A DNA stretch of 64,000 nt from Paludibaculum sp. (lineage in GTDB: Bacteria > Acidobacteriota > Terriglobia > Bryobacterales > Bryobacteraceae), in assembly GCA_029973955.1 (NCBI GenBank), contig JARKQJ010000091.1, forward strand, positions 248,001 to 312,000. Reading direction: 5' to 3'. Below are positions 61,514 through 64,000 of this stretch, piece by piece. The notes under the pieces were generated by a model. The model did no database searches and was not told the DNA's origin. It worked only from the letters and a program-made list of their open reading frames with translations. Position numbers and translations under genes: made by a program. Position 1 is the first letter of the stretch. Each line of letters starts with the position of its first letter.

Positions 61514-61589
61514 GGCCAGGTAGCTCAGTTGGTAGAGCGCGGCCCTGAAAAGGCCGGCGTCGGCGGTTCAAGTCCGTCCCTGGCCACCA
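61514..61589 (+). tRNA. tRNA-Phe (anticodon GAA)
   Basis: A complete 76-base cloverleaf: acceptor GGCCAGG pairs with CCTGGCC, D-arm GCTC/GAGC, anticodon stem CGGCC/GGCCG with loop CTGAAAA (anticodon GAA), T-arm GGCGG-TTCAAGT-CCGTC, discriminator A, and an encoded CCA. Its 3' two-thirds is overlapped on the other strand by the serine recombinase frame, which stops within the D-arm region. The tRNA is intact. Confidence 0.97.
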
Positions 61590-63234
61590 GCCGCATTACG
61601 CACTTTTCTTCCCCGCCCAATTCCATCTCTCCCGACACCCTGTAAACAGGTTTGCCCTCGCGCTCCACGGGCGTGAGCACGAGCTGCGGGATGTGCTTCT
61701 GTAGGGCCGCACGTGCGACCAGCACGTTGTCGCCGACCAGTTGGGCCTTCAGCGTCAACAGCGTCTTTGTGACGTGCTGCCGGACCTGCTGGTCGGTGAT
61801 CTTCAAGTCCATCGGGCGGTAAGCCGCGATCTGGGCCTCGACGGCCTGACGTTCGGCGTCCACGGCTTTGAGCTTGGTCAAGAGGGCCTCCATGCCGTCG
61901 GTGGTGGCGATGGCGGTGGTCAGGCGATCTATCTGGATCTGGAGATCGTCCCGGTGGCGCTTCAAACTGTCCAGCGTTGTTACGGCTCCCTTCTGCTCCA
62001 TCTCCGCGATCCGCCGTGCCACCCCATCGCGTACCCGGGTGATCACTTCATCCAGCATTTCGGGCTGGAAGAGTCGTTGTTCGAGGGCGGCAAAGAGTTG
62101 CTCCTCCAGGCGATCCTGGCGAATGTATAGCTTGTTCTCGCAGCTGCCCCGGTAGCGGTGGCAGGGGCAGCCGTATTTCACGTAGCCCCGCTTGCCGCCG
62201 CCGCTGACGATCACCATGTTCGAGCCGCAAAAGGAACACTTCAGGATGCCGCTGAACAAGTAGTGCTTGCTGCTCTCCGTTCGGCTCTGTCCTCCCAGGC
62301 GGTGGATTCCGGAAGCGTTCACCCTGTCGTTCCGCTGCCGCACAGCATCCCATTGCTCGTCAGTAACGATGCGCCAGGCCGGGACCTCGTGCCGCACCAG
62401 ATCATAGGCTTCCCTCTTCCTGCTGGTTTTCTTGCCCGTTTCCGGATTGCGTATCTTTTTGGTGCGATTCCACTCGAACACACCCCGGTACCGCTCGTTC
62501 TTCAACATCTCCCTTATGGCTGTCGGGCACCACCCTCTGTATTCCCTATTCCGTGGTGGCTGGGGCGATCTCACCCCCTCGGCGTTGAGGAGTTTGGCGA
62601 TGGCAGCGAGGCCCAGACCTGAGGCGCTGAGGTCGAACATACGCCGGACGACGGCTGCCTCCGCCTCGATGATTTCGAGCCGAACGCCGAGTACCGCCGG
62701 ACGTCCGTACTTGGCTGTTCTCGTGGGGTCCTCGATAGGTACATTGCGGTAGCCGTAGATCCTGCCGCCGGGGTTGAATCCCTCCAGAACTCTTCCCTCC
62801 TGGCCCCGGTGGACCTTATCAGCCAGCCCATCCAGGTACTGTTCATCGAAAATCCCCATGACCGCCAAGGCCATCTTCGACGACTTCTGGCTGGTGTCGA
62901 TCCCGTTGGCTGCAACGCTGACCTCAACGCCGTAGAACTGGAGGGTCTTTACCAACCTAGACGAGTCGGCGTAATCACGAGCAAGGCGGGAGGTGTCGTC
63001 CACCAGAAGCCTGTCGAAGGGGCGTGGTTTCCGCTTAGCTGCCTGAATGAGCGCATCCATCTGTTCCCGCCCAACGAGACTCGCACCGGACACTGCCTTG
63101 TCGGCGAGGACAAACTGGTCTACAACCTCCCACCCCTGCCGCTCGGCATACAGGCGGCACCGCCGTTCCTGGTCCTCGATGGACGATGCCCGTTGTAGGT
63201 CTGAGCTGTACCGTGTGTAGATTGCACAACGCAT
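61525..63234 (-). CDS. Large serine recombinase ending inside tRNA-Phe
   Basis: A 569-residue serine integrase/resolvase. N-terminal catalytic domain: AIYTRYSSDLQRASSIEDQ with nucleophile Ser10, DDTSRLARD, then a Recombinase domain (GLAAIAKLLNAEGVR, MLKNERYRGVFEWN). A zinc ribbon follows (LKCSFCGSNMVIV, then CPCHRYRGSCENK), then a coiled coil (about 430-500). AGGAGGG is 9 bases before the chosen ATG; the frame is open 24 codons further but lacks such a site. The last 21 codons (GLEPPTPAFSGPRSTN at the end) lie on the antisense of tRNA-Phe. It should catalyse integration and excision of the element to its right. Confidence 0.93.
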   Translation of the reverse strand: MRCAIYTRYSSDLQRASSIEDQERRCRLYAERQGWEVVDQFVLADKAVSGASLVGREQMDALIQAAKRKPRPFDRLLVDDTSRLARDYADSSRLVKTLQFYGVEVSVAANGIDTSQKSSKMALAVMGIFDEQYLDGLADKVHRGQEGRVLEGFNPGGRIYGYRNVPIEDPTRTAKYGRPAVLGVRLEIIEAEAAVVRRMFDLSASGLGLAAIAKLLNAEGVRSPQPPRNREYRGWCPTAIREMLKNERYRGVFEWNRTKKIRNPETGKKTSRKREAYDLVRHEVPAWRIVTDEQWDAVRQRNDRVNASGIHRLGGQSRTESSKHYLFSGILKCSFCGSNMVIVSGGGKRGYVKYGCPCHRYRGSCENKLYIRQDRLEEQLFAALEQRLFQPEMLDEVITRVRDGVARRIAEMEQKGAVTTLDSLKRHRDDLQIQIDRLTTAIATTDGMEALLTKLKAVDAERQAVEAQIAAYRPMDLKITDQQVRQHVTKTLLTLKAQLVGDNVLVARAALQKHIPQLVLTPVEREGKPVYRVSGEMELGGEEKCVMRLVARDGLEPPTPAFSGPRSTN

Positions 63235-64000
63235 ATCTGCTATCCCTCCTGGCTCCCTGCCATCAACTCCTGGACCAGCTTGTCCACCATGCGGGGCACC
63301 AGCCAATCACAGATCAGCCCTTTCAGATGAACGTCTCCGAACACGTCATCGGCGAGTTCCAGCCCCGGGCCGGGTCTGTTCTGCTCTTTCCGGGACTTCC
63401 GGCTGGGGGCCGATTCGTCCGGAAGCGTAGCATAGGCCGACTGGGCCGGGAGTACTATGCCCCCGACGGCAGCCTCCGGTGAGCCTTGGACCGCCTCCAC
63501 GCCCTTCTTCCGACTCCCCCGCATCGCGGCCAGCCCGGGATCGAGCCTCACCTCCACAACACGCTCCAGGGGCACCGTTACGGCTTCTTGGATCGATACC
63601 GGCGGGCGGGCCTTCTCCGGCGGCTCCGCAGCCTCCGCCTGGGGCGCTGCTAGGGTGAGGCCCAGGACGGCGGCCAGGACCGCCATCGGAAGGTGGCGGC
63701 CCCACAGATCGAAGAGCTTTGGGTGCCACGATAGGCTCGGCCAGCCCCAGCCCAGCCGCATCGATCCGCCGACGTCGTACTTGCTGGAGGAGGCCGAGAA
63801 CACCCCCTCGCCCCAGAGTGGAGGTGGAGGGGTGAGGAATGCGGTTACCTGCCCCTGGACGGCTTCAGGGAGGAGGTGATCGGCGGTGAGGCTGTGGGCG
63901 TTCATGGGAGTGGCCTCCGGCTACCCTGGTCTCCTGCCAGCCAAAAGATCGCCAAGGTGTTACTTCTCCAAGCGTATGTGGGCTGTTGAGCGGTTAAACG
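61590..64000 (-). mobile_element. Integrated element at tRNA-Phe (left part only)
   Basis: The segment from the 3' end of tRNA-Phe to the window edge carries a serine recombinase abutting the tRNA and one unknown gene, both reading toward the tRNA. Its + strand is C-rich, unlike the G-rich DNA to the left. The far end is outside the window, so neither the second attachment site nor the cargo is visible. Integration at the tRNA is inferred from the recombinase position. Confidence 0.65.
63240..63905 (-). CDS. Unknown protein of the integrated element
   Basis: A 221-residue frame, five bases upstream of the recombinase start, so probably co-transcribed with it. GGAGG lies 8 bases before the ATG. 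Residues 70-95 contain a signal- or membrane-like stretch (MAVLAAVLGLTLAAPQAEA), so the true start could be internal. The rest is charged and ends HLKGLICDWLVPRMVDKLVQ. The early PPPPLWGEG phrase is typical of translated intergenic repeats, so the first 40 residues may be non-coding. On the same strand, another frame comes in from the right edge and its TGA would overlap this ATG (ATGA). No family recognised. Confidence 0.5.
   Translation of the reverse strand: MNAHSLTADHLLPEAVQGQVTAFLTPPPPLWGEGVFSASSSKYDVGGSMRLGWGWPSLSWHPKLFDLWGRHLPMAVLAAVLGLTLAAPQAEAAEPPEKARPPVSIQEAVTVPLERVVEVRLDPGLAAMRGSRKKGVEAVQGSPEAAVGGIVLPAQSAYATLPDESAPSRKSRKEQNRPGPGLELADDVFGDVHLKGLICDWLVPRMVDKLVQELMAGSQEG

Follow-up and report, generated by a model that had tools for sequence, protein, structure and literature searches.

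Integration at a tRNA-Phe gene would exchange the C-terminal tail of a large serine recombinase

Why does the gene for a serine recombinase end inside a tRNA gene, and does the end of the protein depend on whether the DNA that carries the gene is integrated? The question arises at one end of a 64,000 nt stretch of DNA from Paludibaculum sp. (GenBank assembly GCA_029973955.1, contig JARKQJ010000091.1, positions 248,001 to 312,000; the whole stretch is termed the window). An earlier note on this DNA had proposed that the recombinase frame reads into an antisense tRNA-Phe, stops in its D-arm and thereby gains approximately 21 tRNA-derived residues. This description proved accurate. The recombinase coding sequence and the tRNA gene overlap by 65 nt, the stop codon at 61525 falls in the D-arm, and the final 20 residues (VARDGLEPPTPAFSGPRSTN) plus the stop are antisense tRNA-Phe, giving the enzyme in its integrated state the tail ...KCVMRLVARDGLEPPTPAFSGPRSTN. 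This tRNA-Phe (gaa) is the sole tRNA called by ARAGORN in the whole window. The features of the locus are collected in Table 1.

Table 1. Positions in the window of the recombinase gene, the tRNA gene and the attachment site features.
Feature	Position	Strand	Basis or note
tRNA-Phe (gaa), intact, integration target	61514-61589	+	ARAGORN
Large serine recombinase (Resolvase + Recombinase + zinc ribbon), 569 aa	61525-63234	-	frame, Pfam, PHROG
Tail coded by the tRNA up to the predicted crossover, host side: final 17 residues DGLEPPTPAFSGPRSTN + stop	61525-61578	-	
16-bp att core GCTGGTGGCCAGGGAC (minus strand)	61576-61591	-	second copy at G000:C229:3943-3958
Inferred central dinucleotide GG (minus strand), centre of rebuilt attP	61578-61579		arm symmetry, hand-counted
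Left attP arm GAAAAGTGCGTAATGC, 16 bp, encodes the residues immediately before the core	61593-61608	-	perfect inverted copy at G000:C229:3916-3931
Left part of integrated element	61590-64000, onward 8583 bases to contig end (L003)		far end is C229:1-3958
ORF 5' of recombinase, 221 aa, patchily similar to the corresponding region of G005	63240-63905	-	

The protein carries the Pfam domains PF00239, PF07508 and PF13408, each above the cut-off, and matches the integrase family phrog_95 with an E value of 2e-89. Serine recombinases share the catalytic motif YxRxS, and nine aligned sequences, that of the window recombinase among them, all have the R, S, S, D and Q of YTRYSSDLQ. All three domains finish by residue 384 of 569, and any change of tail is confined to approximately the last 20 residues. 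Because the same arrangement and the same tail are present in two other genomes of the genus (G003 and G005), and because the body of the recombinase is under purifying selection (dN/dS 0.13-0.18), the overlap is more than a chance event. Pfam and PHROG searches with the 221-aa ORF on the 5' side of the recombinase gave no match.

Similar overlaps recur among more distant relatives. Homologues of the recombinase were found in 14 of 257 order-level genomes, and eight of these 14 loci end in an antisense tRNA called by ARAGORN (five Phe and three Met, with one identical pair of tails among the Met loci). Two additional loci have tRNA-coded tails that ARAGORN does not call (one is interrupted by Ns and one is partial), one reads into a degenerate tRNA-Met, and the other three are cut, partial or without a tRNA. 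A sample of the phylum gave matches in 17 of 396 genomes, with the window's genome counted. Among 18 further loci from this sample, three overlap an antisense tRNA (Phe, Met and Glu) and two adjoin a tRNA-Glu with extra copies of its 3' end; the script used for this sample took the longest frame, which at some loci is not the recombinase, and its misses are not firm.

A genome from another family (G199), whose recombinase is 50% identical to that of the window, carries both ends of its element on one contig, 40.3 kb apart, with a 17-bp core. Here the recombinase frame reads into and beyond an antisense tRNA-Phe. At the far end, 17 bp of the tRNA 3' end are repeated and GCATTACAC comes next, mirroring GTGTAATGC beside the tRNA junction. 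The attP of this element has 9-bp arms and a 28-bp spacer (counted by eye), a spacer the same as that of the window's element. A typical large serine integrase attP spans approximately 40-60 bp, with a short core and inverted arms.

The geometry of the G199 element provided the clue for a search with arm plus core in the window's own genome (G000), G003 and G005. The single match lies at C229:3925-3955 in G000; the far ends of the G003 and G005 elements were not found by this search. At the C229 junction, a 16-bp copy of the tRNA 3' end stands beside a perfect 16-bp inverted arm. In the earlier note, the serine recombinase was taken to mark one end of an integrated element, for which a repeat of the tRNA 3' end was to be the sign. 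The repeat exists, and with its matching core and inverted arm it bears this view out, on a separate contig and not within 11 kb on the same one. Neither those 11 kb nor 40 kb of G003 hold a long repeat of the tRNA 3' end, because these elements have a short core and far ends situated outside the contigs concerned. The rebuilt attP of the window's element has 16-bp arms and a 28-bp spacer (hand-counted), is centred on the tRNA acceptor end and falls within the recombinase coding sequence.

Joining the two junctions in silico yields a different C-terminus for the recombinase. The rebuilt free tail of the window's enzyme is ...VARDSPAQHYALFRIPLEDIYLDPRLDLRMM, which ends in RLDLRMM, and on integration ...VARDSPAQHY...RMM is exchanged for ...VARDGLEPPTPAFSGPRSTN. 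The corresponding free tail rebuilt for G199 is ...VARDGFVQHYTPLRVPLNGLVLHPAA. The suggestion in the earlier note that the tail may differ between integrated and excised states is thereby upheld, both by this joining and by the attP-coded tails of two sequenced phage isolates described below. A candidate conservation of the attP-coded tail as one sequence was rejected: the window's element and G199 share QHY..R(I/V)PL, which is partly arm-derived, and other members differ.

These comparisons lead us to a mechanism that we hold with considerable confidence to be the best explanation of the locus. The element would integrate by means of its own large serine recombinase, using as attP an inverted-repeat site that spans the 3' end of the recombinase gene and whose core is an antisense copy of the tRNA-Phe acceptor (3') end. 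When this site recombined with the host gene, tRNA-Phe would be restored, and the same junction would fuse the recombinase gene to the antisense tRNA, which would supply its last 17-20 codons and stop. The original 3' end of the gene would be moved to the opposite end of the element, and excision would bring the original tail back. Across the family the exchange may often strip a C-terminal degradation tag and leave a longer-lived enzyme in the lysogen, although the window's own element shows no sign of such a tag. Within this explanation, the tail swap in the window's element and its family is well supported by the sequences. The crossover would most probably fall at the centre of attP, in which case the final ~11 nt of the tRNA (61579-61589) would be element-derived, and the element would be active now or would have been so formerly.

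Viral contigs searched with the window protein as the single query gave no close relatives. Four scans of IMG/VR, three of them represented by the best 80 of 154, 359 and 313 confirmed stretches, gave at least 255 loci, which reduce by identity of the last 120 residues to 194 distinct tails among the matches listed. Antisense tRNA encodes 125 of these 194 listed tails, 44 as called by ARAGORN (Met 36, Gly 4, Phe 2, Glu 1 and Ser 1) and 81 as recognized by an antisense T-arm motif. Among the listed matches, 43 of the 44 ARAGORN-class tails end within the tRNA and one (L249) ends 189 nt beyond it; all 81 motif-class tails hold the T-arm motif, and 62 of these are on records that end at the stop. 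Another 31 listed tails contain the core without an ARAGORN-called tRNA. Five of them, first classed as 'core only', hold tRNA sequence or a short tail of tRNA type and were excluded from both counts, leaving 26 attP-like tails. The remaining listed tails comprise 27 others, as well as eight that are cut and three that are short, which were dropped.

Both ends, with core and arms, were found in nine of the 55 viral prophages tried. Under a rule that was set post hoc, eight of the accepted far ends have the full 9/9 core and one (L166) has 8/9 with a high palindrome score. For the other 46 prophages no far end was found: four have no recognizable near core, 20 gave no candidate and 22 gave low-scoring candidates only. 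Many attP-like tails lie on metagenomic contigs, some of which may be tandem prophages. As terminal repeats were absent from the 10 attP-like records tested, we do not claim that these contigs are circles and rely on isolated phages instead.

Two family queries (E <= 1e-40) retrieved four phage records that represent three distinct phages. In Rhizobium phage RR1-A and Microcystis phage Mae-JY30, a contiguous attP lies within the end of the recombinase gene, with perfect inverted arms of 8 bp and 13 bp, respectively (by eye). The tail of RR1-A ends in ..GRFVA (..VVAGERFEQSPQIILGRFVA) and that of Mae-JY30 in ..GVIAA (..VVAEVRSNPSPPFRFGVIAA). The RR1-A enzyme is 87.9% identical over 527 aa to the enzyme of prophage L356, whose tRNA-coded tail ends in MVAGEGLEPPTRGL (VAGEGLEPPTRGL). 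The DNAs of this pair are nearly identical for ~30 bases through the core and divergent thereafter, and free and integrated forms of the gene end can thus be read side by side in relatives of the window's element. By eye, the gene end of the third related isolate, Mae-JY29, lacks an attP of this kind.

The serine integrases of this type form a large, widespread family, and the tail that is lost often appears degron-like; the earlier note had raised neither point. Among the matches listed, 16 of 26 attP-like viral tails end in Ala and eight end in Ala-Ala, versus 53 and 14 among 333 background ORFs of these records (Fisher, p 8e-7 for A and 4e-5 for AA; these ORFs were chosen by length and not by a gene caller). 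None of the 125 listed tRNA-coded tails ends in Ala. Other frames of the same DNA give Ala ends in 0/47 and 3/46 cases, with Ala-Ala in none, and read-through to the next stop gives 5/38, again with no Ala-Ala; the frame controls and the background ORFs derive from 53 records, the sets of 26 and 27 combined. When the two isolates are added to the 26 attP-like tails, 18/28 end in Ala and 9/28 in Ala-Ala, and weighting by clusters of 50% identity gives 10.7 and 6.5 of 17. The 27 tails of the other non-tRNA class, which were kept apart, include 11 that end in Ala and five in Ala-Ala. Furthermore, the rebuilt tails of integrated elements, a set nearly independent of the attP-like one (L300 and L127 have one tail in common), end in Ala in five of 11 cases (p 0.02) and in Ala-Ala in four (p 8e-4).

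This enrichment suggests an ssrA-like degradation tag that integration removes. More specifically, it may be that in a widespread clade of phage and element serine integrases the enzyme of the free genome carries an attP-coded ssrA-like degron that restricts it once infection has taken place, and that integration replaces this degron with a tRNA-coded end, stop codon included, to give the lysogen a longer-lived enzyme for excision. We propose this only tentatively, at somewhat less than even odds. Such a stability switch may operate in part of the family only, and under this reading the swap would hold for the window's element and the degron only for part of the clade.

There is nearly an even chance that the tail swap is real and yet neutral, with attP lying in the gene end because a compact module is readily transferred, and with neither tail of any consequence. 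The rebuilt tail of the window's own recombinase lacks an Ala end, as do 10 of the 28 family attP tails and six of the 11 rebuilt ones. In addition, the tRNA-coded tails are read in several frames (106, 8 and 11 of 125, the last group being 'third frame or other', as classed by regex), which argues that function does not constrain the tRNA-coded sequence as such. Against neutrality, Ala and Ala-Ala ends recur in unalignable tails of diverged enzymes, as the cluster weighting indicates, and again among the rebuilt tails, whereas Ala ends are rare in the other frames of the same DNA and none of those is Ala-Ala. It is improbable that the Ala-rich ends arise from base composition or from the arm sequence rather than from selection. 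Background ORFs on the same records do end in Ala and Ala-Ala at the rates given above, but the other frames, the read-through products and the tRNA-tailed enzymes do not share the enrichment seen in the attP-like tails.

The swap reconstructed for the window's element depends on the pairing of contigs C186 and C229. The element was not seen as a free circle and nothing bridges the gap between these contigs, so the evidence for their pairing comes from arms, core and flank. Past the junction, C229 matches the sequence that directly follows the empty tRNA-Phe of a same-genus genome, G008, in three blocks (82%, 77% and 85%), with ~7.2 kb of C229 separating the far end from the first of these matches. 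The two contigs do not overlap and contamination of this metagenome-assembled genome is estimated at 6%, so that C229:3943-3958 might be the end of a different, related element. Such a mispairing is very unlikely, however, given that the genome has one recombinase match (E <= 1e-40) and one full tRNA-Phe match, that the 16-bp arm is perfect, that the 28-bp geometry is that of G199, and that the flank agrees with G008.

Paired in this way, the element measures at least ~14.9 kb. The GC content changes from 0.63-0.68 ahead of the tRNA to mostly 0.52-0.62 beyond position 64000, and among the cargo genes (L003:172-7755) are those for a D5-type primase/helicase, a DUF4238 protein and a phospholipase C-like protein of the zinc-dependent kind. 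A gene for a small resolvase-type recombinase of 208 aa (L178:3056-3682) lies immediately within the far end of the element; a stretch 75% similar to it is located near the tRNA-Phe of another genome, G019.

Same-genus genomes with and without the insert were compared, as the earlier note had advised. Two of the eight other genomes (G003 and G005) carry a recombinase 81% and 83% identical to that of the window at the same tRNA, and the tails of these close homologues are the same as the window's. Five of the eight (G001, G002, G006, G007 and G008) have tRNA-Phe followed by other sequence, which tells against the core-chromosome gene that the earlier note had named as grounds for refutation. 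In G004, contig C30 ends at the exact last base of tRNA-Phe (L008:1767), possibly because integrated and empty copies were mixed in the sample. Similarity among the three carriers ends shortly past the recombinase, and their cargo therefore differs. That the recombinase is an old, fixed chromosomal gene beside tRNA-Phe and belongs to no mobile element, which its presence at the same tRNA in three of nine same-genus genomes with divergence similar to that of neighbouring sequence might suggest, is largely refuted and extremely improbable in view of the five genomes without it, the early end of homology among carriers, the far junction and the relatives in viral contigs and phages. Among public relatives of the recombinase, the nearest comes from a metagenome-assembled genome of the Bryobacterales, an order of the phylum Acidobacteriota, and a scan of genome contigs with the window recombinase matched the G005 contig only. 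A different sequence, common to G001 and G019 (L009 and L017; ~74% over 91 bases), follows tRNA-Phe in those two genomes, and the site thus seems to be used by other elements too.

The enzymes phiC31, Bxb1 and A118 are large serine integrases, and the window's recombinase shares with enzymes of this type the order of Resolvase, Recombinase and zinc ribbon domains, the short core and the inverted-arm attP. It differs in that the family of the window's element has the 3' end of a tRNA gene as attB and an attP within its own 3' coding end. Integration-dependent immunity in phage BPs and its relatives was reportedly set out by Broussard in 2013. According to the portions of that literature that we could consult, attP in these mycobacteriophages lies within a phage gene and the site is a host tRNA gene, the virion form of the protein bears an ssrA-like tag (..LAA), and integration removes it; an Ala-Ala end is thus characteristic of the tags in the known systems of this kind. 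The gene exchanged there is the repressor, the integrase is of the tyrosine type and its own tag is not described in those portions as exchanged, whereas here the enzyme is a serine integrase and attP lies in the integrase gene itself.

Recombination sites within an integrase gene that is changed by integration have been described, in the excerpts available, for archaeal 'suicidal' tyrosine integrases of the SSV type and termed exclusively archaeal. Those integrases are split and inactivated, whereas in the window's recombinase, which is neither split nor deprived of essential parts, the change is limited to a short tail C-terminal to the catalytic and zinc-ribbon domains. Nor is the locus a tRNA island of the tyrosine-integrase kind, as the enzyme at the junction is a serine recombinase. 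The earlier note had called a serine recombinase at a tRNA gene less usual; it is unusual, yet has a precedent in Paracoccus phage vB_PamS_Pami6 (2019), for which the accessible text gives a serine recombinase and tRNA-Met as attB. That text, on which this comparison by description rests, mentions neither an overlap of gene end and tRNA nor a changing tail. From similarly partial sources, a paper on Variovorax includes one serine entry at tRNA-Arg, and the Islander work (2014) states that use of tRNA genes by serine integrases was not known. The words 'tRNA' and 'degron' are absent from the main text of a 2022 survey of large serine recombinases, and open-licence literature, as sampled by best-ranked titles, abstract openings and passages, contained no report of a serine integrase with an exchanged tail.

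Serine integrases are tools of genome engineering and have been described, in the passages seen, as not using tRNA genes; the present elements are a large family that does. Since the att sites of this family are tied to tRNA ends and to a fixed place in the gene, they should be predictable from sequence. The exchange would represent a second form of integration-controlled protein tail, acting on the integrase itself, and would offer a connection, open to direct testing, between integrase turnover and the state of integration. It also accounts for the many recombinases in the searched collections that end in tRNA-like peptides such as VAGAGFEPATFRL.

Some insertion sites carry additional copies of attachment sequences. 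In G199, a second complete attP-like site (GTAATGCTGAT, 20 bp, ATCAGCATTAC) is present in the recombinase tail just before the tRNA junction (L051:3190-3290), as a largely lost tandem insertion would be expected to leave behind. In the L127 prophage (L127/L200), the sequence ahead of the far end is also found at the end of the L300 recombinase gene, which suggests tandem prophages at one tRNA-Met. Finally, at L060:1150-1330 and L065:1144-1275 the 3' ends of tRNA-Glu are repeated once more beside the recombinase gene ends, and these duplications resemble scars of repeated insertion.
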